From Selenomonadaceae bacterium (GTDB lineage: Bacteria; Bacillota; Negativicutes; Selenomonadales; Selenomonadaceae), in contig JAFUXN010000049.1 in assembly GCA_017477125.1 (NCBI GenBank), forward strand, positions 1 to 44,442: a stretch of DNA of 44,442 bases, written 5' to 3'. Every line of letters begins with the position of its first letter. The stretch's first letter is position 1. The translations under genes were made by a program, and so were the position numbers. Under the pieces are notes generated by a model that saw only the letters and a list, made by a program, of their open reading frames with translations, was not told where the DNA came from and did no database searches. Below, in pieces: positions 1 to 44,442 of the stretch.

Positions 1-790
1 AACCGGCGGCGACGCGTCCTTTTCTGATCAATTGTTTGAGGCGGGCGACGACTGAAGATGGAGCGCCCGCCTGGGTATGGGGCGGCTCGCTCCTGTTCTC
101 ACAGTCGATAACCAAAACGTTGGGGAGGAGGAGAAAAAGCGGCGTCCGCCGCGCGAACGGGCGGCGACGCTTACAGCTTTACCTTTGTGCTCAAAATATG
201 ATGAGGTTCAGAAGAAGGTCGGAGCGCCCGCCTAGGCATGGGGCGGCTCGCTCCTGTTCTTACAGTCGATGATCAAAACGGTGGGGGATGAGAAGAAGCG
301 TCGTCCGCCACGCGGGCAGGCGGCGACGCGTCCTTTCTTCAATAAATTGTTTGAGGCGGGCGACGGCGAAAGAAGGAGCGCCCGCCTACACACGTGGCGA
401 CTCGCTCCTATTCTCACAGTCGACGTCAAAACGTTGAGGAGATAAGAAGCGTCGTCAGCCACGCGAACAGGCGGCGACGTGTCCTTTTCTGTTCAATTGT
501 TTGCAGCGGATGAAGACGAAAGAAGGAGCGCTCGCCTGGACATGGGGCGGCTCGCTCCTGTTCTCGAAGTCGATGTCAAAACGTTATGGAGGAGAAGAAG
601 CGGCGTCCGCCCCGCGAATCGGCGGCGACGCGTCCTTTTCTGTTCAATTGTTTACGACGGGCGACGGCGAAAGAAGGAGCGCCCGCCTATTCCTGGGGCG
701 GCTCGCTCCTTTTCTTACAGTCGATGATCAAAACGTTGGGGAGGAGAAGCGGCGTCCACCCCGCGACACGGCGGCGACGCTTTTATTTTT
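1..790. repeat. Intergenic array of nested palindromes (about 150-bp units)
   Basis: About five tandem units, each with two GC-rich hairpins. Hairpin 1 (GGAGCGCCCGCC, short loop, GGCGGCTCGCTCC) lies at 60-93, 221-254, 375-408, 525-558 and 676-709, a spacing of 150-161 bp. Hairpin 2 (AAGCGGCGTCCGCC paired with GGCGGCGACGCTT) follows each copy, for example at 137-172. The linkers share the words TTTTCTGTTCAATTGTTT and CAGTCGATGATCAAAACG. Loops vary more than stems, as expected if structure is conserved. Short open frames here change between units and look non-coding. The same hairpin families recur near 13.5-13.9 kb, inside cobA-hemD and after hemB. Confidence 0.85.
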
Positions 791-7092: not shown

Positions 7093-8346
7093 ATGCTGCA
7101 AACTTTTCTTCAACAGTTCGTCCCCGCCATGGAGGAGGGCTTGACCCTCGGCGTGCCGCTCGCCATCTTGCTCGTCATTCTCCGTCGCTCACCGTCAGAC
7201 GTATATCGAGCCGCTTTCCGCTCGGCTCTCAAGTGGGGCTTCTGGTTGTCTATCTTCCTCGTCGCCGTCCGCGTCGGCACTCGCAACGCCATCAGTCGAG
7301 AAATCTTAGAGGGATTCGCCGTCGCCATGATCCTCGTCGCCGAATCGATCATCATCGCTCGACTGTCGTTCGCCAATCTGCCCGCCGTCGATAAGATGTT
7401 GAGGTCGGCAGTCACCGCCGCCGTCGCCGCATTGTTCCTGTACCACGGCTTTGAACTCTGGCTTCTGCCCGTCGGCTCGATCGTCGCCGCGCTCGGCGAT
7501 TACTTCTCCACCACCTTCTTGATGAAAATCCTCGGCTTCGTCGGCGGAGCACTGTTCGCATTCGTCAGCGCGTTCCTCGTCTTCAAAGCCGCCGACGCTC
7601 TCAACGATCAACGTTTAAAATTCGTCTTCATCGTGCAGATCGCCGCTTGCATGATCCAACAATCGATCTTCCTCATCCAAGTGCTCATGGCGCGCGACAT
7701 TCTCAACGGCGAAACCGTCATGTCGATCATGGCGCCCATCATCAACAATCAATCCGCGCTCATCTTCGTGATCTTCGCCGCCATTCTCGTCGTGCCCATC
7801 ACTCTCTTTTCGCAACCCCGACCGTCGAAACCCGAAGGCGCCAATCCCGCTCAATACCGTTCGATCATCGCTCGAGCGATCCATAAACGGCGTTGGGGCA
7901 TGGGCGTCGTCGCCGCGCTGATCCTCATGACCGCTACATCGAGCGCGGGTAGTTACGTCGCCAACATGAAGGCGGAGATCGTTCCCGCGATCCCCGTCGG
8001 TGCCGTCAACGGTGCCGTCGATGTCGACCTCGAAACCATCAAAGACGGGCATCTGCATCGATTTGTTTACGGCGCGTCGACGGGCGAGCAGGTCAGATAC
8101 ATCGTGATCCTCAAGGGCGGTTCGGCGTACGGTGTGGGGCTCGACGCTTGCGAGATTTGCGGCGCGACGGGTTATTACGAGCGCGACAACCAAGTGATCT
8201 GTAAGCTGTGCGACGTGCAAATGAATAAAGCGACCATCGGGACGCGCGGCGGTTGCAATCCGATCCCGATCGAATATCGGATCGAGGAAGGCAAGTTGAG
8301 AGTGCCGCAAGCCGAGCTCGAGAAAGCGGCTAAGATTTTCCAATGA
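7093..8346 (+). CDS. DUF2318 Fe-S-containing membrane protein (Cj1660-like)
   Basis: A 417-residue inner-membrane protein. About seven transmembrane helices occupy residues 1-260, then an extracytoplasmic DUF2318 domain carries CEIC (about 351) and CKLC (about 371) pairs and a later Cys in GGCNPIPI, arranged like a metal- or Fe-S-binding site. In Campylobacter the equivalent gene lies between P19 and the permeases of the same iron system. A role in electron transfer for iron reduction or release is inferred, not shown. ATG 7093 follows AAGGGAGG (7075-7082). Its 3' end is duplicated 371 bp downstream. Confidence 0.85.
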   Translation: MLQTFLQQFVPAMEEGLTLGVPLAILLVILRRSPSDVYRAAFRSALKWGFWLSIFLVAVRVGTRNAISREILEGFAVAMILVAESIIIARLSFANLPAVDKMLRSAVTAAVAALFLYHGFELWLLPVGSIVAALGDYFSTTFLMKILGFVGGALFAFVSAFLVFKAADALNDQRLKFVFIVQIAACMIQQSIFLIQVLMARDILNGETVMSIMAPIINNQSALIFVIFAAILVVPITLFSQPRPSKPEGANPAQYRSIIARAIHKRRWGMGVVAALILMTATSSAGSYVANMKAEIVPAIPVGAVNGAVDVDLETIKDGHLHRFVYGASTGEQVRYIVILKGGSAYGVGLDACEICGATGYYERDNQVICKLCDVQMNKATIGTRGGCNPIPIEYRIEEGKLRVPQAELEKAAKIFQ

Positions 8347-9121
8347 GAGGTGATAATCATGTTTTGGCAGATGGTCAAGGGCGCGCTCGTCCGACAGAGC
8401 AATCGGTTCATGCTCATCGCGTTGACCGTCGCACTCGGCGTGTCGCTCGCGTCGGCGATGCTCAACGTCATGTTCGACGTCGGCGATAAGGTCAATCGGG
8501 AGCTCAAGGCGTACGGCGCCAACATCACCGTCACACCAAAAAACGCCGCGCTGCTCCGCGACGTCTACGGCAATCTCATTCTCAAAGACGGATCGGAACT
8601 GCCCGCGCTCGGTACTTGGTTCGAGCATACGATGACGTTGATCAATATCGGATCGAAGAGGGCAAGTTGAGAGTGCCGCAAGCCGAGCTCGAAAAGGCGG
8701 CTAAGATTTTCCAATGAGAGGTGATGACAATGTTTTGGCAGATGGTCAAGGGGGCGCTCGTCCGTCAGAGCAATCGGTTCATGCTCATCGCGTTGACCGT
8801 CGCACTCGGCGTGTCGCTCGCGTCGGCGATGCTCAACGTCATGTTTGATGTCGGTGATAAGGTCAATCGGGAGCTCAAGGCGTACGGCGCCAACATCACC
8901 GTCACACCAAAAAACGCCGCGCTGCTCCGCGACGTCTACGGGCTCACCAATTCTTCTGCTCGAGAGTTCCTCAATGAAAGCGACCTCGGCAAGATCAAAA
9001 CCATTTTTTGGACTAATAATATAGTGGCGTTCGCGCCGACGCTCGACGGCAATCTTATTCTCAAAGACGGATCGGAACTGCCCGCGCTCGGTACTTGGTT
9101 CGAGCATACGATGACGTTGCC
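8273..9121 (+). repeat. Tandem duplication (371-bp step) of the DUF2318 3' end and permease 5' end
   Basis: Sequence 8273-8643 recurs from 8644 with a constant 371-bp offset: the DUF2318 stop (8344 and 8715) and the permease ATG (8359 and 8730) both repeat. The second copy contains 108 bp, within about 8940-9052, that the first lacks; the missing piece is flanked by ACGG at both ends. Few substitutions separate the copies, so the duplication is recent. Confidence 0.9.
8359..8670 (+). pseudogene. Truncated duplicate of the first ABC permease
   Basis: A 103-residue frame whose first 74 or so residues are nearly identical to the start of the next gene (MFWQMVKGALVRQSNRFMLI...). It then skips 36 residues (in-frame 108-bp deletion), resumes at NLILKDGSELPALGTWFEHT, and ends in a short unrelated tail where the duplicated DUF2318 3' end begins. 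Its ribosome binding site (GAGAGGTGAT) is intact, so it may be translated into a single-helix protein. The full permease domain is absent. Best read as debris from a tandem duplication. Confidence 0.85.
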
Positions 9122-13490: not shown

Positions 13491-13910
13491 TTGAGGAATA
13501 AAAAGAGCGCGTCGCCGCCTTGGCATTCGGCGGACGCCGCGCATTTCTTCTCACGACGATAACGATATCATTATGGTTCCGTTTTTGAGAGAAGGAAAAA
13601 GTGCGTCGCCGTCTCATCGCGGGACGGACGACGCCATCTCTCTTAGCCTACGATAACGATATTGTTGTGATTCTGTCGTTGAGAGAAGGAGAGAGCGAGC
13701 CGCCCCCATCGGAGGCGGGCGCTCCTATTTCTCCGTCGCTCCTGATTATTATGTTCTTATCGTTGAGAGAAGTAAAAAGGCTTCGGCGTCTCATCGCGGG
13801 ACGGACGACGCCGGATCTCTTAGCCTACGATAACGATATCATTATGGTTCCGTCCTTGAGAGAAGGAAAGGAGCGCGCCGCATCATGCCCAGGCGGGCGC
13901 TCCGTTTTTT
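13491..13910. repeat. Palindrome array between convergent apbE and polyferredoxin genes
   Basis: About 420 bp without a credible gene. It starts with a hairpin GCGCGTCGCCGCC / GGCGGACGCCGCGC (13507-13542) just after apbE. It contains two copies of GCGTC...TCATCGCGGGACGGACGACGCC-type stems and at least three copies of ACGATAACGATATCATTATG followed by a TTGAGAGAAGGAAA word. A GAGCGAGCCGCC / GGCGGGCGCTC palindrome of the 1-790 family lies near 13694-13727. It ends with the terminator-like hairpin at 13870-13910. Units are about 80-130 bp and alternate among palindrome types. Confidence 0.8.
13870..13910 (+). terminator. Palindrome-derived terminator
   Basis: GGAGCGCGCCG (13870-13880) pairs with GGCGGGCGCTCC (13892-13903), followed by GTTTTTT. 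The stem belongs to the intergenic palindrome family but ends in a T run, so it can end + strand transcripts coming from apbE. On the other strand it lies at the 3' end of the polyferredoxin gene. Confidence 0.6.
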
Positions 13911-14733
13911 ATTCGTCACCTTTGAACTCTAGTGCGCGCTTCGGACAAATCGTCGTGCACCGTCCGCAACGAACACACTCAATCGAGTTTTGATCCGCCG
14001 TCGGCTCAATCGACATCGGGCAACTTCGCCCGCACCGTCCGCACGCAACACACTTCGCCCCATCGAACTTCAATCGATAGATGCTGATCCGATTCATCAG
14101 ACCGTAGAGCGCGCCCAACGGACACAGCACTCGACAATAAAACCGTTCGACCATCGCGCTCCCGATCAACACGATCAGAAGAATGGTGACCTTCAACGCG
14201 AATAAATTTCCAAGCACAGCTCGAAATTCGGGATGCGTGATCACCATCGGCAACCCCGCCTCCAATGTCCCCGCAGGACATATGTACTCGCAGAACGTCG
14301 GCGCCCCCATGCCGACTCGGTTCGTCCAAATGATCGGCAACGCGAACACAAATACGATCAGCACCACGTACTTCATATAAATTGCTCCGCGCGGAAGGTT
14401 GAGCTTGGGCGTCGGCAATCGATAGAGCAACTCTTGAATCAATCCGAACGGACAGAGGTAGCCGCATACCGCTCGCCCGATCAACAATCCAATCAACAGT
14501 ACGAATCCCAATGCGTAGAGGCTGACGTTGAATTGCATTGAGCCGCCGATCGCTTGGATTGCTCCGATCGGACACGCCAACACCGTCGCAGGACACGACC
14601 AGCAGTTGAGTCCCGGCGCGCAAATATTTTTCAATACGCCCTTGTAGAGACGACCGTCGAGGAAATTCATCAGCAGAGGATTGCACATCACAACCGCCGA
14701 CCATTGGATCAATCGTCGTTTCGACAGCCGCAT
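13909..14733 (-). CDS. NapH/RdxA-like 4Fe-4S polyferredoxin membrane protein
   Basis: A 274-residue membrane iron-sulfur protein with about five transmembrane helices. Two transmembrane CxxxCP motifs (CGYLCPFG and CRVLCPLG) are typical of NapH/NosR/RdxA proteins. The C-terminus holds two ferredoxin clusters: CVACGRCGRSCP and CVRCGRCTTICP. Additional cysteines occur in CAPGLNCWSCP. It likely moves electrons from the quinone or cytoplasmic pool across the membrane. Start ATG 14733 lies 3 bp after the stop of the small CxxC protein. It is the last gene of the - strand run folB to polyferredoxin, and together with the FMN-binding/ApbE pair suggests an exported electron-delivery module. Confidence 0.87.
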   Translation of the reverse strand: MRLSKRRLIQWSAVVMCNPLLMNFLDGRLYKGVLKNICAPGLNCWSCPATVLACPIGAIQAIGGSMQFNVSLYALGFVLLIGLLIGRAVCGYLCPFGLIQELLYRLPTPKLNLPRGAIYMKYVVLIVFVFALPIIWTNRVGMGAPTFCEYICPAGTLEAGLPMVITHPEFRAVLGNLFALKVTILLIVLIGSAMVERFYCRVLCPLGALYGLMNRISIYRLKFDGAKCVACGRCGRSCPMSIEPTADQNSIECVRCGRCTTICPKRALEFKGDE

Positions 14734-18210: not shown

Positions 18211-18249
18211 GGTAAAATTGATTGCGGAATCAATGAAGGAGTGATGAGT

Positions 18250-19833
18250 ATGTCTGTCATCAACAATTACAATGACAATACTTTGGTCAGCGGAACCTCG
18301 AGCGCAGATTCAATTGAAAACTACGGCTCGATGGTTACGCTCAACGCAGGAGGAGGAAATGATTACCTCAGGACAAATTTTGTTGCATCGAATGTGACGA
18401 TGAACGGAGGAGCAGGCGACGACATTATTTACAGCAATGGCTCTAACACTTCGGCGAACGGCGGAGCAGGCAATGATTCAATCTACAACAACGGCTCAAA
18501 CAACACAGTCGATGGCGGCGACGGCAATGATATACTCCGAACGGGCTTCGTCACTTCAACCAACGTTACGCTCAATGGAGGCAAGGGTAACGATACTATC
18601 TACAACACGGGTTCATCGAGCGTCGTGTTGAATGGCGACGCCGACAACGATTACATCAGGACTGACTCTATCACTTCAGATGTCACCATCAACGGCGGAG
18701 CGGGCAAAGATTCACTCTACACCAACGGCTCAAGCGTCGCGGTAAACGGAGACGACGGCAATGATTATCTTAACAACTGGCGGAACACTTACGGCGTCAC
18801 AATGAACGGCGGCGTCGGCGACGACACGCTTGATAATAATGGCTTCAATGCCGTGATCAACGGCGGCGCAGGCAATGACCGGATTTATAACGATTCGCTT
18901 GCGTCGAACGATACGCTCAACGGCGGAGCGGGCAACGACACTGTATATAATCATGCTTCGAACGTATTAATCGACGGCGGCGACGGCAATGATTTACTCT
19001 GGACGGGCTACGACACTTCAAACAACGTAACTCTCAACACCGGCGCGGGCAATGACACCGTCGATATTTGGTCAGCAGGTAAAAACACCGTTAATGTCGG
19101 CGAAGGTAGCAATTTACTCCGCGTGCTCCGAGATAATGAACTCATCGTTAACGGCAGCGACGCCAACGAAAGCCTTTTGATCTACGCCGATCGAGAAAAG
19201 GTTTACCACAGCATGCCCGACATCGCCATGACCATCAACAGCAGTCGCGGCAACGATACCGTCAACGGCTTCGACTATGCGCGCGGCGTCTACTCCTACT
19301 CGCCCAACCACGGCAACGATGTCATTCTCGGCTTCGGCAATCAGAGCACTCTCAAGGTCAACGGCACGATCGATCGTTGGTCTCTCGACGGCAGTGATGT
19401 CGTCTTCACCGTCGGGCAGGGCTCGGTCAGGCTCAAGAACGGCAAGGGGCATGTCCTCAACGTCAGCGACAATAACGGCGCGGTCTCTACCGTCTTCGGC
19501 GGCAGTTACTCTTATTCTCAACAGGACGTGCTCAAAGATTTCATGCGGTCGCTCAATCAAACCACTCTCACATCGACGGCGGACATGGTTGACGAGGCGA
19601 TCAACTCATGCTCGAAAGGCAAGTACAAAAATCTTTCAGCTGCCGTTGACGCATTCATCAGTGACTGCCGAGGTGCCAAGGGCGATGTTGATAAATTTCT
19701 CCAAGAGTACTGCGGCATTTACCCAGATAACGCGGACACGGGCGCGATCACGGGCTGGGACGCAGGTGGCTCGACCGTCAAAAATTACTATAACGTCGTG
19801 CCGTTAAACTCAACGAAGAATCCTACGGTCTGA
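18250..19833 (+). CDS. RTX-repeat protein, N-terminal part of a frameshifted gene
   Basis: 527 residues from ATG 18250, chosen because AAGGAG (18236-18241) precedes it at 8 bases. Residues 10-300 are a long run of hemolysin-type glycine/aspartate nonapeptide repeats (NGGAGNDxIYNNGSN, DGGDGNDxL), expected to bind calcium. There is no Sec signal, as usual for type I secreted RTX proteins. After about residue 420 comes a conserved helical module ending GAITGWDAGGS, also present in the 29.6-31.7 kb protein. There the frame runs out at 19833. The missing continuation is in the frame open from 19794 (next entry). The parent gene therefore spanned about 18250-23432. Confidence 0.75.
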   Translation: MSVINNYNDNTLVSGTSSADSIENYGSMVTLNAGGGNDYLRTNFVASNVTMNGGAGDDIIYSNGSNTSANGGAGNDSIYNNGSNNTVDGGDGNDILRTGFVTSTNVTLNGGKGNDTIYNTGSSSVVLNGDADNDYIRTDSITSDVTINGGAGKDSLYTNGSSVAVNGDDGNDYLNNWRNTYGVTMNGGVGDDTLDNNGFNAVINGGAGNDRIYNDSLASNDTLNGGAGNDTVYNHASNVLIDGGDGNDLLWTGYDTSNNVTLNTGAGNDTVDIWSAGKNTVNVGEGSNLLRVLRDNELIVNGSDANESLLIYADREKVYHSMPDIAMTINSSRGNDTVNGFDYARGVYSYSPNHGNDVILGFGNQSTLKVNGTIDRWSLDGSDVVFTVGQGSVRLKNGKGHVLNVSDNNGAVSTVFGGSYSYSQQDVLKDFMRSLNQTTLTSTADMVDEAINSCSKGKYKNLSAAVDAFISDCRGAKGDVDKFLQEYCGIYPDNADTGAITGWDAGGSTVKNYYNVVPLNSTKNPTV

Positions 19834-19973
19834 GCTTCTCTCAAGACAATGCGAAGTTCAACAAAGGCTTCCTCTACTTCGCATCCGAGCCCGATGTCTA
19901 TTGGTGGGCGAGCGCCGGAGCCACTGACCAATCGAATGGGCGCCTCGCCTTCAACACATACTACTTTAAAAAC

Positions 19974-22900
19974 TTGGCTTTGACCGATCCATCGTACAAT
20001 GGCATCGGTAATATTGTCGCTCACGAGTTCACTCATGTATTGGTGTCGTCGCTGACAAACAGGGGCAGAACGGCGACATTTATCAATGAGGGAATGGCAG
20101 ATTTGACCCGCGGCGTCGACCATCGATATAAAAACCTCTTCGAGGGGTTTGTTAAGAATCCCAATGAGCTGGCGAAGTACGTCAATGTAAATGCCATGGA
20201 AACCGAAAAAAATGAGTACTATGCCGGCGGCTATATGTTCTATCGTTGGCTGGCGAAGCAGTCCGCTGTCTTCGACGCCGACGCTCTTTCGGGCTCGATG
20301 CCCAACGCTCCCGATACGCCCACCGTCCCTGCAGAGCCGACCGTCCCCGCCGACTCGCTCAACACCATCATCGGGAGCAACGGCAATGATGTTTTGCTCG
20401 GCACCACCGCCGTTGATTACTTCGTCTATTCGCTCGGCGGCGGCTCCGACGTGATCGGCAACACCAAGGACAGCAAAACCCTCTACCGCGCCGACGACAA
20501 GATCGTTATCATCGACGGCAACGGGCTCGATGATATATACTTCACCGACAAGAAGAACACTCTCACCGTCGCGTTCAAGAGAGACAATCGAAGCAAGCTC
20601 ACCATCAACAAAAATTCTTCCCTCGACGCCGTTGAGTTTTATATCGGTTCCGATCTCAATTCGGCGCTCGCGTCCGATGCCTACTCCTACGGCTTGACCG
20701 ACGACGTCACGCTCGACGCCGGCGGCAACAAGTTGAGCGTTAAGCCCGGCAACACATCAGCCGTCACCGTCGACGCCGCCGATATCGTTTCGACCGCCAA
20801 GACCATCGACGGATCAAATGCAAGCGGCGCCGTCAAACTGATCGGCAACTCCAATGCCAATGTGCTCGTCGCGGGAACTCATGGCTCGACGCTCGACGGC
20901 GGTTCGAATAAGAGCAACGGCAAGGGCACCGCCGATAAACTTCATGGCGGTTCGGGCGCCGACGTGTTCATCTACAACGCCGACGGCGTCAACGATATCA
21001 TCTATGGCTACGACGGTTCGAAAGATAAGATCATGCTCGTCGGCGTCGCAGATAATTTCTCGATCGATACCGCCAACGCGAAAGTTTTCAAGGACAACGG
21101 CAAGAGCATCGTGCTGACGATCGGCAAAGGCAAACTCACCATCGATAAGCCCGCGGGCGTCGTTCATTTCGTCGACGCCAACGATCGGACGATTCTCGAT
21201 TACGGCATCGAACTTCCCGACGGCGTCTCGCTCAACGCCAACAAGACCGCATTGACCATCGGCGAAGGCGCGGCGCTCGAAACCGATACGATCTCCGTCA
21301 ACGATACGCTGTTCACCGCTTACGTCCCCAAGCTCAACGAGATCGACGCTTCCGCTTACGAGGGCGAGCTTGAATTGCATGGGGCGAACGGCAAAGCCAA
21401 TGTGTTGAGGGCGAGCAAGGGCGGCTCGACGCTTGCGGGCGGCAACGGCAATGATCAGCTCCACGGCGGCAACGGCAGTGATACGTTCGTCTACAGCGCC
21501 AAGGGCGGCAAGGACGTCGTTTATAATTTTGCCGACGGCGATCGCATTCACGTCTCCGATACCTCCGTTCGCAAGAGCATGTTCGTCGAGAGCGGCAAAG
21601 ATGTGATCCTCAAGCTCGACAACAAAAACACTCTGACGTTGAAAAATGTCGCGGGCAATCGGATCACCTTCAGCGGCGCCGACGGCGTTGAAATGACTTA
21701 CGGCTATACTCTGCCCGGCGGCTTGAGCTACAACTCGAACAGGACGGGCATCGTGGTCAGCGACAAGACGCAGATCGATTCGGGCTTGACGATCGATCTC
21801 AACGACGACGATGATTATTACGCGACCGCTCGCAATGTCGATCTCCGCAAGGTCAACGCGTCCGACATCACCGTTCTCGGCGACCAACAGAACAACATCA
21901 TCTACGCCTCCGACAGCGATATGAATGTCTACGGCGGTTTGGGCAATGATCAGCTCTACGCTCCCACGGTCGACGGCGCGACGGTCAACTACTACTACGC
22001 GGGCGGCAAGGACGTCATCAACAATTACGATCCCGAGCGGGTCGCCATCAACATCGATGAGAACTCGAGCGTGATATCGGGCATCGCGATCAATCGAAGC
22101 AGTTTCGTCGAGAAGGGCAACGATCTCGTCGTGACCTTCAATCGCAATAACACCCTCACGATCAAAGATGCAACCAAATATCTCAACACCGGCAAGATGC
22201 TCAACATCGCGGGCGTCGAATACGGCTGGCAACTGGACGACGGTCTCACATACGATGCGCGGCGGACGTCGATCGGCGTCTCCAATAAAACTCTCGCCGA
22301 ATCAAACGGCATGCTCAACATCGATCTGACGAGCGACGATTATGCTCCGACCGTCAAGAAGATCGATCTGAATGGGCTCAACGTCAGCGCCTCATTGATC
22401 GGCAACTCGTTGGCGAACACTCTGTACGCGAGCGGTGAAAACTCGACGCTCGAGGGCGGCGCGGGCAATGATGTTCTCTACTGCAGCACGGTCGAAGGCG
22501 CCGGCACGACGATCGTCTACGGCAGCGGCGACGGCAAAGATGTCGTTTATAATTATTCGAGCGGCGACACGATCCGATTGAAGGGCGATGTTGCGATCGG
22601 CGACGCGAATTTTGTCGAGAAGGGCAACGACATCATCATCAACGTCGGCAGAGGAAACATCACTTTGAAGAATGCTCCGCGCGACGCTATCAGCGTGGTC
22701 GGCGACGCTCAGACCTTCACCTACAATCCGTTGCCGACGGGGTTGAGCTACAACGCGCAGAAGACAATCGTGACGGCGGCGAAGACTTACGGCAGTGCGA
22801 CGCTCGACGTGAACGCGCTTGGGTTGGCGGGCACGCTCAAGGAGATCAATGCGTCGGCGGTGAACGGCTCGCTTTCGATCGTCGGGAATGCTCTCAACAA

Positions 22901-23432
22901 TGTGATCAAGGCGTCGAAGGGCGGCTCGACGATGGACGGCGGCGCGGGCAATGATACTTTGTTCGGAGGCAAGGGCGCCGACGTGTTCAAGTACAGCGGC
23001 GGCAACGACTTCATCACCAACTACACTGCCGATCAAGACGTCATTGAGATCGATGGTGCGGTGACGAGCGGCAGGTTGGCAGGTTCGAATGTCGAGCTCA
23101 CGATTGGGAGCGGCAAGCTCACGATCAAGGGCGTGGTCAATAAAAAATTGACCGTCAAAGACGAGAACGGTCAATCAGAATATCTGTTCACCAAGGCGAA
23201 CGGCACGTTGAATAAGGCGCGGGTTTCGAGCAGCAGCCAATTGAGCGCTGATGATTACTGGTTCGTGCCCGCGGACGATGCGATGTCGGACGAGCTCAAC
23301 GAGCTGATGACGAGCGATCCGATTGTCGACAATGCGTTGGCTGATGTTGACGATATCGGTTCGATGATGAAGAAGTTCATGCGGCAGTCGACCGACATGT
23401 TGGCGGCGGCTCGCCATAAGACCAAGCGTTAA
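19974..23432 (+). CDS. Metallopeptidase domain plus RTX repeats, C-terminal part of the frameshifted gene
   Basis: The frame is open from 19794; the first start-like codon is TTG 19974. Upstream codons read SYGLSFSQDN, homologous to SYGMNFAESG of the paralogue, proving the coding continues leftward. Residues 10-60 hold the zinc motif HEFTH and a downstream NEGMAD, the probable third-ligand region. Then about 900 residues carry six or so blocks of RTX-type sequence (TLDGGSNK, TLAGGNGNDQLHGGNGSD, TLEGGAGND, TMDGGAGND) alternating with beta-rich linkers. The C-terminus is acidic then basic, as in type I substrates. About 50 family residues between the two parts are absent, so this is a deletion plus frame loss, not programmed shifting. 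1152 residues if translated alone. Confidence 0.75.
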   Translation: MALTDPSYNGIGNIVAHEFTHVLVSSLTNRGRTATFINEGMADLTRGVDHRYKNLFEGFVKNPNELAKYVNVNAMETEKNEYYAGGYMFYRWLAKQSAVFDADALSGSMPNAPDTPTVPAEPTVPADSLNTIIGSNGNDVLLGTTAVDYFVYSLGGGSDVIGNTKDSKTLYRADDKIVIIDGNGLDDIYFTDKKNTLTVAFKRDNRSKLTINKNSSLDAVEFYIGSDLNSALASDAYSYGLTDDVTLDAGGNKLSVKPGNTSAVTVDAADIVSTAKTIDGSNASGAVKLIGNSNANVLVAGTHGSTLDGGSNKSNGKGTADKLHGGSGADVFIYNADGVNDIIYGYDGSKDKIMLVGVADNFSIDTANAKVFKDNGKSIVLTIGKGKLTIDKPAGVVHFVDANDRTILDYGIELPDGVSLNANKTALTIGEGAALETDTISVNDTLFTAYVPKLNEIDASAYEGELELHGANGKANVLRASKGGSTLAGGNGNDQLHGGNGSDTFVYSAKGGKDVVYNFADGDRIHVSDTSVRKSMFVESGKDVILKLDNKNTLTLKNVAGNRITFSGADGVEMTYGYTLPGGLSYNSNRTGIVVSDKTQIDSGLTIDLNDDDDYYATARNVDLRKVNASDITVLGDQQNNIIYASDSDMNVYGGLGNDQLYAPTVDGATVNYYYAGGKDVINNYDPERVAINIDENSSVISGIAINRSSFVEKGNDLVVTFNRNNTLTIKDATKYLNTGKMLNIAGVEYGWQLDDGLTYDARRTSIGVSNKTLAESNGMLNIDLTSDDYAPTVKKIDLNGLNVSASLIGNSLANTLYASGENSTLEGGAGNDVLYCSTVEGAGTTIVYGSGDGKDVVYNYSSGDTIRLKGDVAIGDANFVEKGNDIIINVGRGNITLKNAPRDAISVVGDAQTFTYNPLPTGLSYNAQKTIVTAAKTYGSATLDVNALGLAGTLKEINASAVNGSLSIVGNALNNVIKASKGGSTMDGGAGNDTLFGGKGADVFKYSGGNDFITNYTADQDVIEIDGAVTSGRLAGSNVELTIGSGKLTIKGVVNKKLTVKDENGQSEYLFTKANGTLNKARVSSSSQLSADDYWFVPADDAMSDELNELMTSDPIVDNALADVDDIGSMMKKFMRQSTDMLAAARHKTKR

Positions 23433-33667: not shown

Positions 33668-33979
33668 GGAGTTTTCTCCCGCCCACCCGCCCTTTGTTCC
33701 TTCGGAACCGATCAATGGGATTAAAGGGCGTCGCCCTTCGACCCGATCAAATTTAGAGATTGAAGGGCAGCGCCCTTCGACCCGATCAAACTTACAGATT
33801 GAAGGGCAACGCCCTTCGACCCGATCAAACTTACAGATTGAAGAGCGGCGCCCTTCGATCCGATCAAACTTACAGATTGAAGGACAACGCCCTTCGATCC
33901 GATCAAACTTACAGATTGAAGAGCGGCGCCCTTCGACCCGCCTTCCGTTTGTTAATCCAAACTTGTAATCCCTGAGGAG
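33655..33979. repeat. 39-bp tandem hairpin array flanked by 17-bp direct repeats
   Basis: Six copies of a 39-bp unit, with palindromic cores AGGGC..GCCCT starting at 33725, 33764, 33803, 33842, 33881 and 33920. The constant linker is CGATCAAACTTACAGATTGA. The array plus a short lead-in lies between two identical copies of TTGTAATCCCTGAGGAG (33655-33671 and 33963-33979). The first copy carries the stop of the Ada-like gene, and the second supplies the ribosome binding site of the delta-subunit gene. The unit is a multiple of three and open in several frames, but there is no sign it is translated. Confidence 0.85.
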
Positions 33980-36002: not shown

Positions 36003-36003
<1 letters not shown>

Positions 36004-36956
36004 TGGAGCTCAAGGAATATCGCTACGAGTGTTGCGACGCTCTAAAATTTTGTCGAGCGATGGGCGACGGCGAGGTCAAGTTATTGATCACGTCGCCACC
36101 TTACAACATTGGCAAGGAGTATGAGACGCGCGTCGGGATCGAACAATACCTTCAATCGATGGAGCCGTTGCTCGATGAATTTGTTCGGCTCGTTGCCGAC
36201 GACGGAAGTCTCTGTTGGCAGGTCGGCAATTACGTCGACAACGGCGAAGTTTATCCGCTCGACATTTGGTATTATCCGCTGTTCAAGCGTCGCGGTTTCA
36301 AATTGCGCAATCGGATCGTGTGGCACTTCGGGCATGGATTGCATTGCTCGAAACGATTCAGCGGACGGTATGAAACATTATTGTGGTTCACGAAATCGGA
36401 CGAGTACACTTTCAATCTCGATGCGGTCAGAGTACCGTCGAAGTACCCGGGCAAGAGACATTTCAAGGGCGAAAAGCGCGGGCAATTGAGCGGCAATCCA
36501 CTGGGGAAAAATCCTTCGGACGTGTGGCAGATGACGGTCGAGCGATTGATCGACGATTGGGATTGCGGGCTGTGGGACATTCCAAACGTCAAGGCGAATC
36601 ACATTGAGAAGGTCAATCACCCATGCCAATACCCCGTTGAGCTCGTCGAGAGATGTGTACTCGCGTTGACCGATGTTGATGATGCGGTGTTCGATCCGTT
36701 TGCGGGCGTGGCGTCGACATTGATCGGAGCGCTTAAGAATGATCGTCGAGCGTACGGTTCGGAGCTCAATGCGGAGTATGTTGAGATTGGTCGCAAGAGG
36801 ATTGAGTTGTTGAGGAATGATCTGTTGCCGACTCGTCCGATCCGTCGACAGGTGTACGAGCCCAAGCCGACCGATAAGCTCGCGCGTCGACCGGAGGAGT
36901 GGGGAGGTGAGCGGAATGAGGATCAATCAGCTGTACAGTCACTTGAATGGACTTGA
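36003..36956 (+). CDS. DNA methyltransferase, beta-type N4-cytosine/N6-adenine (probably N4-cytosine)
   Basis: The modification enzyme of a type II system, 317 residues. The catalytic motif TSPPYN (30-35) comes first and the AdoMet-binding motif VFDPFAGVASTLIGAL (about 225-240) last, i.e. beta order. SPPY is typical of N4-cytosine enzymes. The TRD-like region lies between. It overlaps the endonuclease gene by 41 bp and shares one base with pyrG, so it appears newly placed behind pyrG. With a BglII-like partner, a GATC-containing hexamer such as AGATCT or RGATCY is the predicted target. Confidence 0.88.
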
Positions 36957-37530
36957 ATATCTGATCGTCCATAAAAAATATATATTGGCTGAGATCGAAT
37001 CGGTCATTCACAGCGTGGATGCGTCGCTTGCTTTCAAGAAGATCAGCAAGGAGAAAGATAAAGTCGGCGAAACGATCTACGCACCCAAGATTTTGAACAA
37101 ACTCTTTGAGCAGGAGTTTGAAACGTTCGGTTGGCGGGAACTCAGAACGCATTACTACGTCAACGAAGACCTTCAGACGACTCGAGACACCGTTCATATC
37201 GTCGACAAGAAAACGCAGAAGAAGGAGATTGAACGTCGCGGCTTTGTCGCCTATAATACTTACAATCAAGTTGATTTCGTCAAGGATCGAGTTGCCGTCG
37301 AAGTTCAGTTTGGAAAGTATTTCGCCGTTCAATACGACCTTCACGTCAAGCACACCTTCTTCTTCGAGCGCGGCGACATTGATGTTGGCGTCGAGATCAT
37401 TCCAATGCACAGTCTGATGAGCGAGATGTCCTCCGGTGTTGCTTGGTATGAGAATGAGCTGACCAACATCGTCCGCGAAGGTCGATCCAATCCGTCGGTA
37501 CCGATCGTTTTGATCGGCATCGAGCCGTGA
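36916..37530 (+). CDS. BglII/BstYI-like type II restriction endonuclease
   Basis: A 204-residue protein. The segment VDFVKDRVAVEVQFGKY carries D120, E129 and Q131, with exactly the spacing of BglII active-site residues D84, E93 and Q95. This unusual E-x-Q variant of the PD-(D/E)xK core is known from BglII and BstYI. Downstream FFERGDIDVGVEIIPMHSL also fits that fold. Length is near BglII (223). ATG 36916 follows GGGGAGG within the end of the methyltransferase gene. Specificity is inferred from family only. The surrounding window contains AGATCT at 27316-27321, so the host would need the methylase. Confidence 0.82.
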   Translation: MRINQLYSHLNGLEYLIVHKKYILAEIESVIHSVDASLAFKKISKEKDKVGETIYAPKILNKLFEQEFETFGWRELRTHYYVNEDLQTTRDTVHIVDKKTQKKEIERRGFVAYNTYNQVDFVKDRVAVEVQFGKYFAVQYDLHVKHTFFFERGDIDVGVEIIPMHSLMSEMSSGVAWYENELTNIVREGRSNPSVPIVLIGIEP

Positions 37531-41255: not shown

Positions 41256-42947
41256 ATGCGCAAAGTGTATTTGGTAGGAGCGGGCCCGGGCGACGCGGGG
41301 TTGTTGACGGTTCGAGCGTTGGAGCTGATCGGTCGGGCGGACGTGATCATCTACGATCGGCTGGCTGACGAATCGATACTGAAATACGCGTCGGCGACGG
41401 CGGAGATGATCTACGTGGGGAAGGCGACGGGCGATCACACCATGACGCAATCGGAGATCAATCGTCTGCTCGTCGAGAGTGCGGGGAAAAAATTCGAGCG
41501 CCCGCCTTCGATGCCGGCGGCTCGCTCGCTCTCGTTGGGCGGCGACGAAAAAATTATTGAGCCCGTGTTGAAGTCGGAGGGGGCGACGGAAAATGACGCG
41601 CGCCCGCTTTCGTTGGGCGGCGATGGAAAAATTTTTGAGTCCGTGTTGAAGTCAGATGAGGCGGCGACGGAAAATGACGCGCGCCTGCCTTCGTTGAGCG
41701 GCGACAATAAAATTATTGTTCGATTGAAGGGCGGCGATCCGTTTGTGTTTGGACGCGGAGGCGAGGAGGCGCTCACTCTCGTCGAATACAATATCCCGTT
41801 TGAGATCGTCCCGGGCGTTACCAGCGCCATTGCCGTCCCCGCTTACGCCGGCATTCCCGTCACGCATCGCGGCGTCGCTACTTCTTTCGCGGTCGTCACC
41901 GGTCACGAAATGAACGACGAGCGTTCGAACATTCGTTGGGACAAGCTCGCCACCGCCGTCGACACTCTGATCTTCCTGATGGGCGTCGCCAATCTTGCTA
42001 AGATCACTCAACGTTTGATCGCCAACGGTCGAGCGCCCGAGACGCCCGCCGCGGTCATTCGTTGCGGCACTCGCTCCAATCAGCGGACGTTGATCACTAC
42101 CGTTGAGCGCGCGGCTGACGACGTTGAGCGCGAAGGGATCACGGCGCCGGCGATCTTTATTGTCGGCAACGTTGTCGAGTTGAGAGATCGATTGCAATGG
42201 TTTGAAACGCGCCCGTTGTTCGGACGGAAGATCGTGGTCACTCGAGCTCGAGCGCAAGCGTCGGCACTGTCGAGCAAGTTGATAGAGCTGGGTGCGCAAT
42301 GCATAGAGTTCCCGACCATTGAGATCGTCGACCCGTCGGATCGATATGCGTCGCTCGACAGCGCGCTCGATCAGCTTTCGACGTTCGACATAATCATCTT
42401 CACGAGCGTCAATGGCGTTGAGAAATTTTTTGATCGACTGCTCGTCAAGGCGCTCGACGTTCGAATGATCCGAGCGAAGATCGCGGCGATCGGTTCGGCG
42501 ACGGAGGCGGCGTTGCGATCTCATGCGCTCATCGCCGATTACGTACCGGGCGAGTTCCGCGCGGAGGCGTTGATAAAATTGCTGAGGGACAAGGTTGACG
42601 GGAAGAAGATATTGATCGCTCGAGCGGAGGAGGCGCGCAGTATCTTGCCGCTCGAATTGCGACGGCTGGGAGCGACGGTTGAGGTGGCGGCGGCTTATCG
42701 GACGGTGAGCGCGGTCGACAAAGCGATCCCTGACGGCGTCGATTGGATCACATTCACCAGCTCGTCGACGGTCAAGAATTTTGTCAAGAGCTTCGGCGCG
42801 GAGATGTTATCGAAGGTGAAGACGGCAGCGATCGGACCGATCACCGCCGACACGTTGAACGCGTTTGGTGTCGAGCCGACGGTTGTAGCGAGTGAATTTA
42901 CCATCGACGGGCTGATCCGCGCGATCGTCGATGCAAAGGAGTGTTGA
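41256..42947 (+). CDS. cobA-hemD: Fused uroporphyrinogen-III C-methyltransferase / uroporphyrinogen-III synthase, with a repeat insertion
   Basis: Bifunctional CobA-HemD, 563 residues. The SAM-dependent methyltransferase half (about 1-310) has [32 protein letters not shown] and [21 protein letters not shown] in order (quoted in parts). The HemD half (about 325-563) begins [17 protein letters not shown]. Between GK (about 78) and IIVRLKGGD (about 153) lie some 73 extra residues that normal CobA lacks. They contain two imperfect copies of a 26-27 residue unit (GGDxKIxExVLKS...TENDAR) and are encoded partly by an intergenic-type palindrome. The frame stays intact, so the protein may remain active. 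hemB follows after 1 bp. Confidence 0.9.
41490..41708 (+). repeat. In-frame palindromic repeat insertion inside cobA-hemD
   Basis: About 219 bp within the coding sequence. It starts with GAGCGCCCGCC...GGCGGCTCGCTC, the same palindrome as at 60-709 and in the other arrays. Two imperfect direct repeats of about 80 bp follow (GGGCGGCGA, AAAAAATTATTGAGCCCG, TGTTGAAGTC, GAAAATGACGCGCGCC). No stop codon occurs in the gene's frame. Exact edges are uncertain by several bases. Confidence 0.8.
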
Positions 42948-43924: not shown

Positions 43925-44442
43925 AAGGGGCGCCCGCCTATTCGCGTGGCGGCTCGCCCCATTTTTTCCCGGGCTCCCGAAATATTTTACGTCCCTAAAA
44001 AATTTTATCTGCACCTAAAAAATTTTAGCCGCCTTCAACCGTTGAAACGATGAACCTGGAAAGGACGAGCCGCCGCGAGCGGAGGCGCGCGCCCGACTTT
44101 TTCTTCGCCCCTCAACTGTTTAGCCGTCTTCAACCGTTGAAACGATGAACAGGGTAAGGGCGAGCCGCCCCGAGCGGGAGGCGGTCGCCCTATTTTTTCG
44201 CCGTACTCCTAAAATATTTTATCAGCCTTCAAACGTTGAGCAGAGGAACATGGAAAGGGCGCGCCGCCCCATCGGGAGGCGGGCGCCCATTTTTTTTTGT
44301 CGTACTCCTAAAATATTTTAGCCGCCTTCAACCGTTTAAACGATGAACCTGAAAAGGGCGAGCCGCCCCGAGCAGGAGGCGGGCGCCCGTTTTTTTTCGC
44401 CGAACTCCTAAAATATTTTAGCCGCATACAACCGTTGAAACG
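43925..44442. repeat. Palindrome array after hemB (about 95-100-bp units, runs off the window)
   Basis: The first hairpin, GGGGCGCCCGCC / GGCGGCTCGCCCC (43927-43960) followed by ATTTTTT, is a plausible terminator of hemB. Then four to five units follow, each with CAACCGTTGAAACGATGAAC (starting near 44036, 44131, 44230, 44329 and 44429), a GGGCGAGCCGCCCC / GAGGCGGGCGCCC hairpin, a T run, and an AT-rich CTCCTAAAATATTTTAGCC palindrome. The hairpins are inverted versions of the 1-790 family. The 520 bp hold no credible gene. The array continues past the window end. Confidence 0.85.

Follow-up and report, generated by a model that had tools for sequence, protein, structure and literature searches.

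Whether DNA from the repeat arrays that lie between genes has become part of a protein is the question raised by cobA-hemD in the window (the whole stretch analysed, 44,442 nucleotides of one Selenomonadaceae contig; the draft genome has 154 contigs and is 91% complete). A first-pass annotation had placed an intergenic palindrome family in frame within this gene, as about 73 extra residues before the VRLKGGDPF motif. Both claims hold, and by sequence comparison the CobA insert is real, specific to one species, in frame and made of array DNA.

The extra segment of CobA and its repeat units

41256..42947 (+): cobA-hemD fusion (uroporphyrinogen-III C-methyltransferase and uroporphyrinogen-III synthase), assigned by homology and domain searches
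41496..41714 (+): insertion of 73 codons that keeps the frame; the CysG alignment gives 72, and the edges may shift by a few bases

The gene is one uninterrupted open frame of 563 residues, with an Asp/Glu racemase family gene upstream and hemB downstream, and its TP_methylase (SUMT) and HEM4 domains score above the cut-off (Pfam, NCBIfam). It is the sole full-length CobA-HemD among the matches listed in the draft genome, where three matches were counted; another, on contig 52, has 26% identity. At the nearly invariant column 219 the protein has M where most homologues have P, so that full function is not certain. In the phmmer alignment with siroheme synthase CysG (6pr2), query residue 78 corresponds to chain position 292 and residue 151 to position 293, leaving 72 extra residues between them, and both SUMT stretches align without further large gaps. 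Against a congener (L021, SAGKNF-VVRLKGG) there are 73 extra residues (81–153, or 41496–41714). The length of the span first proposed (41490–41708) is correct; its position is shifted by 6 bp relative to these best edges, which remain ambiguous because A-rich sequence flanks both sides. The insert is located just before the strand leading into the GGDPF motif.

Relatives were searched in 59 other genomes, 36 of them of the same genus; those relatives that bear names are Selenomonadaceae MAGs, with several originating in the rumen. Their matches split CobA-HemD into two pieces (residues ~3–76 and ~150–558), and in 49 of the 49 genomes with both pieces listed the two are, by eye, at most 9 nt apart or overlapping. 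Of 48 relative loci fetched and read on one strand, 31 were read directly (leaving 17 unread; L023 and L064 are the same gene), and all pass from the helix end to RLKGGDPF without the insert. The comparison with relatives suggested at the outset thus finds the segment in none of those read or listed with both pieces. In one relative (G025, C31:1177-1558) the full gene is preceded by incomplete additional copies of the CobA N-terminus that contain stops, and another (G008) has cobA-hemD matches on two contigs, C64 and C120.

41496..41527 (+): palindrome, GAGCGCCCGCC / 9-nt loop / GGCGGCTCGCTC, by pattern search and folding
41478..41566 (+): array unit 1, nearly complete; profile match 41478–41559, E 1.3e-11; best match L158
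41567..41640 (+): array unit 2, without right arm (segment chosen for comparison); profile match 41580–41621, E 0.043
41641..41718 (+): array unit 3, without right arm; profile match 41663–41702, E 0.65

As first described, the insert begins with the intergenic palindrome, imperfect and intact. Folded as RNA it gives -18.3 kcal/mol (z -1.86), an energy matched or bettered in 8 of 200 shuffles; given its composition, the hairpin by itself is therefore unexceptional. The profile was made from 120 array units, none of them from cobA or the second gene (contig 89, below); with E values given for 3 Mb, it matches the insert three times, in order and on one strand. For units 2 and 3, the best score was reached in 0 of 2000 dinucleotide shuffles, and in none was the second score reached twice. 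Local alignment of units 1, 2 and 3 to array units gave z scores of 23, 14 and 11 relative to base-shuffled copies (60 per segment, keeping base composition only). Judged from these matches, the inserted DNA is a stretch of array (palindrome plus conserved flanks, three units) and not a single palindrome.

TRF finds a period of 81 with 2.4 copies in the insert. In-frame repeats start at 41532, 41610 and 41691 (steps of 78 and 81 bp), and in this register 41527–41604 and 41605–41685 are 89% identical. The 80-bp unit of the first-pass annotation is therefore present as a period, but on its sequence looks like a decayed array unit. The likeness of unit 2 to the array rests on the left arm and the segment preceding it, and its global identity to array units is 0.43, versus 0.59 between arrays. 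For the ~20-nt spacers of units 2 and 3 a source outside cobA was sought and none was found, matches elsewhere being at most 18 nt; the spacer segment 41545–41585 scores slightly above shuffles (z 3.8). For unit 1 the best match is in an array on contig 32 (L158). The likeness starts inside an A-rich segment and extends left into GTGCGG..AAAAAT, which also resembles native cobA at the left edge of the insert: ahead of the palindrome the sequence is GTGCGGGGAAAAAATT in cobA and GTGCGGATAAAAAT in the best-matching array unit.

We consider it probable that about three units of the species-specific array entered cobA-hemD and were tolerated in frame, giving a disordered loop in a protein that would still work.

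The intergenic arrays and a second gene

1..787 (+): extragenic array of this palindrome, with ~5 units of ~151 bp each
13688..13730 (-): palindrome copy in a probable intergenic gap; diverged second copy at 13866–13916
43925..44442 (both orientations): array behind hemB, some copies followed by T-runs

Each strand of the genome carries the strict palindrome pattern 211 times (~420 copies in total), and the reversed-pattern control gives 0 matches; the family is thus not a product of chance. The strict pattern, with looser forms outside the search, was found in 0 of 65 other genomes of the genus and in none of the 59 relatives, a set overlapping these 65 congeners. In all, 424 palindromes were counted in the genome, with positions listed for 298. 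The flanks are conserved across 488 copies: GGGGCGACGG lies ~20 nt before the palindrome, with an A-run before, and a T-rich then an A-rich stretch follows on the 3' side, which defines a repeat unit of ~90 bp. No GTAG/CGTC tag is apparent at the stem in the position frequencies of these copies, and the window has no Rfam match at gathering scores. In the array at 1–787 the main palindrome takes turns with a second one that shares its CCGCC/GGCGG core and is of the GGCGTCGTCCGCC ... GGCGGCGACGCC type (family D8). On possible phage carriage, five viral contigs gave one match each.

Neighbouring units have a median spacing of 99 bp (425 spacings), with no bias to multiples of three (130/425). 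Adjacent units are 76% identical (180 pairs) and units of different arrays 59% (400 pairs), means that depend on a simple global alignment; the greater likeness of adjacent units points to local duplication. Among 51 array clusters with both neighbouring genes called (102 clusters at stretch edges are unclassed), 34 lie in codirectional, 15 in convergent and 2 in divergent gaps, compared with 127, 34 and 43 for all gaps in the same stretches, so that divergent gaps are poor in arrays (2/51 clusters versus 43/204 gaps, Fisher p 0.003). In codirectional gaps the median distance of the array is 26 nt from the end of the gene upstream and 122 nt from the gene that follows. The 9 nt following the palindrome contain on average 4.4 T (372 copies). 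The arrays may serve as 3'-end hairpins, either terminators or mRNA protectors; the position fits and the T-runs are moderate. A loss of terminator features in the gene copies is unsupported, the CobA copy having 4 T in 9. Contig ends cut 11 of 20 array stretches, and array sizes are hence underestimated.

contig 89, L199:595-2226: gene for a DUF6056 membrane protein, carrying three array units in frame

The search for palindromes inside other genes, also suggested by the first-pass annotation, led to this second gene. Its units match a profile built without it (E 1.2e-13, 1.9e-12 and 1.9e-8), and in the third the palindrome departs from the pattern at two positions. About 100 residues at this place are missing from the adjoining paralogue and from five aligned congeneric homologues (8 loci were supplied, of which 3 yielded no usable row). 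By eye, the insert seems to be located in a loop between membrane segments. Unit steps of 109 and 83 bp mean that the palindromes are read in two frames, and the whole insert is open.

The in-gene scan covered 802,101 bases (609 units of at least 20 bits) and found array units inside only two genes, cobA-hemD and the contig 89 gene. These bases are 173 stretches plus the window, some overlapping and enriched in arrays, so that 'two genes' is no genome-wide count. The scan demands the coding signal of one open frame on both sides of a unit and would consequently miss copies close to the end of a gene or within a short one; its codon model was trained on long frames from those stretches, of which cobA and the contig 89 gene make up a small share. 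A genome-wide search with the two insert peptides gave no other convincing long frame among the matches listed (150 of 304 candidates scored).

Several candidates were set aside. Six from the codon-model scans (L194, L213, L150, L156, L159 and L222) have one or two palindrome mismatches, were unflagged by the unit-model scan and are taken as chance, and a 10.7-bit unit match within a gene (L322) is probably chance too. Of 14 translated long open frames entering arrays, most are by eye antisense or non-coding or have the array upstream of the start; the 488-codon C114 frame looks like a case of an array 5' of the start codon. In a DUF4127 gene on contig 54 (L179:1-1605) the Pfam match ends at 469 of 535 and the last ~65 codons cross a palindrome; this C-terminus may be palindrome-derived.

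Alternative readings of the insert

An REP- or MITE-like element moved in trans by a transposase into both genes, with the arrays built by repeated insertion, would account for ~420 dispersed copies in one genome and for the lack of the strict pattern in 65 congeners. The arrays also sit close behind upstream genes and rarely in divergent gaps, as do REPs (PMC3733652, in part). The genome has no match to Y1_Tnp (PF01797), within a 91% complete draft and with other transposase types outside the search; the stem lacks the GTAG/CGTC tag, and the gradient of identity within and between arrays assigns much to local duplication. Target duplication is not evident, since the A-rich sequence at both insert edges may be either target duplication or microhomology. 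Taken together, such an element is unlikely. The word 'selfish' in the first-pass annotation is so far unsupported, given no match to a Y1/RAYT-type transposase, no clear target duplication, two genes in the 802 kb scanned and the pattern of local duplication.

Tolerated array DNA, our preferred reading, has also to be weighed against a functional segment under selection, such as a linker for regulation or interaction. In codon make-up the cobA insert resembles its gene: at 0.30 per codon it scores the same as the remaining C-terminal part of cobA-hemD (0.30; 0.54 for the N-terminal part) and above all 181 stop-free array frames (mean -0.16), and GC by codon position (0.59/0.48/0.71) is as in the gene. 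For the contig 89 insert the score is -0.35 per codon, similar to that of raw array. The gene-like codons could reflect age and adjustment to translation. Between insert repeats A and B, pS is 0.105 and pN 0.102 (2 and 6 differences over 26 codons, hence few sites); with steps of 78 and 81 bp, the near equality suggests that the frame is kept while residues drift, and selection at the residue level was not seen over these codons. The segment is moreover predicted to be disordered and is present in one species only, and a selected function seems rather improbable.

The disorder is seen in an AlphaFold2 model of CobA-HemD (33 sequences; mean pLDDT 80), where residues 83–149 have pLDDT below 50 and no secondary structure. 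This stretch sits between helix 65–75 and strand 153–158, and the blocks around it are mostly at pLDDT 66–95. From the fold order we infer that the insert occupies a turn where the strand running to GGDPF begins, hence away from that motif, and that it is probably surface-exposed.

An assembly artefact, in which array reads were misjoined within cobA, is very unlikely. Arrays do break the assembly: many listed copies are at contig ends, and a unit lies within 200 bp at 7 of 62 ends versus 2.3% of bases, a fraction that is biased low (36 contigs, mostly picked for having no listed palindrome copy). The insert, however, has the two halves of the single cobA-hemD on either side in frame; part of its sequence is unique and diverged, its codons are gene-like and it is no copy of another array, and the same pattern recurs in the second gene. 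An ancient conserved CobA domain lost by the relatives is hardly credible, being missing from the relatives read and from the aligned solved siroheme synthase, and the insert being made of the species' own repeat.

Proposed origin and comparison with known palindromic repeats

In our preferred reading, array DNA tolerated in cobA-hemD, a short piece of about three units would have entered the gene and been retained, its length being a multiple of three, its frame free of stops and its site the helix–strand turn before GGDPF. Among array segments of 219 bp, ~11% of (segment, frame) pairs are stop-free (286 segments), and an open insertion is thus uncommon yet not rare. The route of entry may have been template switching or recombination at A-rich microhomology, most likely with no dedicated transposase. 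The leftward extension of unit 1 likeness into cobA-like sequence favours insertion at microhomology; the A-tract is, however, present in most array units and the microhomology with cobA is short and A-rich, so that it may be coincidence. Units 2 and 3 would then have been duplicated in place after loss of the right arm, in steps that keep the frame. The protein is presumably made with a disordered loop of 72–73 residues and still works.

A broader proposal is more tentative: the array may be a living source of protein segments through homology-driven copying without a transposase, with the contig 89 insert still raw and cobA-hemD at a later stage. If so, one genome would show two ages of an array-to-protein process, and, should the inserts differ in age, a single species could be used to trace how an intergenic repeat becomes a protein segment, with the unaltered paralogue adjoining the contig 89 gene as a natural control. 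Negativicutes and a new repeat family would be added to the cases of non-coding palindromes becoming protein.

Rickettsia palindromic elements (RPEs) are short palindromic repeats that occur in intergenic DNA and also, in frame, within genes, where they add tens of residues, and each element family encodes one conserved peptide (PMC10969869, in part). The parallel drawn in the first-pass annotation is sound in that array units are inserted in frame in protein genes here; it fails for the peptide, as the palindrome is read in two frames within the contig 89 gene and no single peptide is conserved. The host is also different (Selenomonadaceae), a multi-unit array is inserted and the event is rare, with two genes in the part scanned. 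REPs are intergenic palindromes near gene 3' ends that sometimes lie within ORFs, and intragenic REP clusters encode 43–82 residues in Thauera and R. conorii (PMC3733652, in part). Going by that portion of the paper, in-frame palindromes are known beyond Rickettsia, and the phenomenon is less exceptional than first implied. Unlike GTAG/CGTC REPs, the present family combines an untagged stem with a ~90-bp unit and conserved flanks, and unlike RAYT-moved REPs it has 0 Y1 transposase matches in its own draft genome. Other coding palindromes, a horizontally distributed palindromic amphipathic repeat (PMC2996958) and those of Nematomorpha mitochondrial genes (PMC6649704), differ in host and sequence type, judging by their abstracts. 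In-frame array insertion works here as in RPEs and intragenic REPs, and the features compared do not place the family in either.

In the open-access literature searched we found no paper on intergenic palindromic repeats in Selenomonadaceae or on REPs in Negativicutes and, going by titles, none on intragenic REP sequences in Firmicutes; the word 'Firmicutes' is absent from PMC3733652 as far as its main text goes, and words that start with 'palindrom' do not occur in the Quinella genome paper.

Other repeats and genes of the window are recorded here. Two 298-nt direct repeats at 8273–8941 are 96% identical (371 bp start to start), and a 39-bp tandem repeat of 5.7 copies lies at 33719–33940 between the arginyl-tRNA synthetase and CTP synthase genes. 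Two long frames at 18241–23432 are rich in internal GGxGND-type repeats, which we take to resemble haemolysin-type calcium-binding repeats. At 36003–37530 a DNA methylase gene precedes one for a BglII-family restriction endonuclease, and the two resemble a restriction-modification pair.
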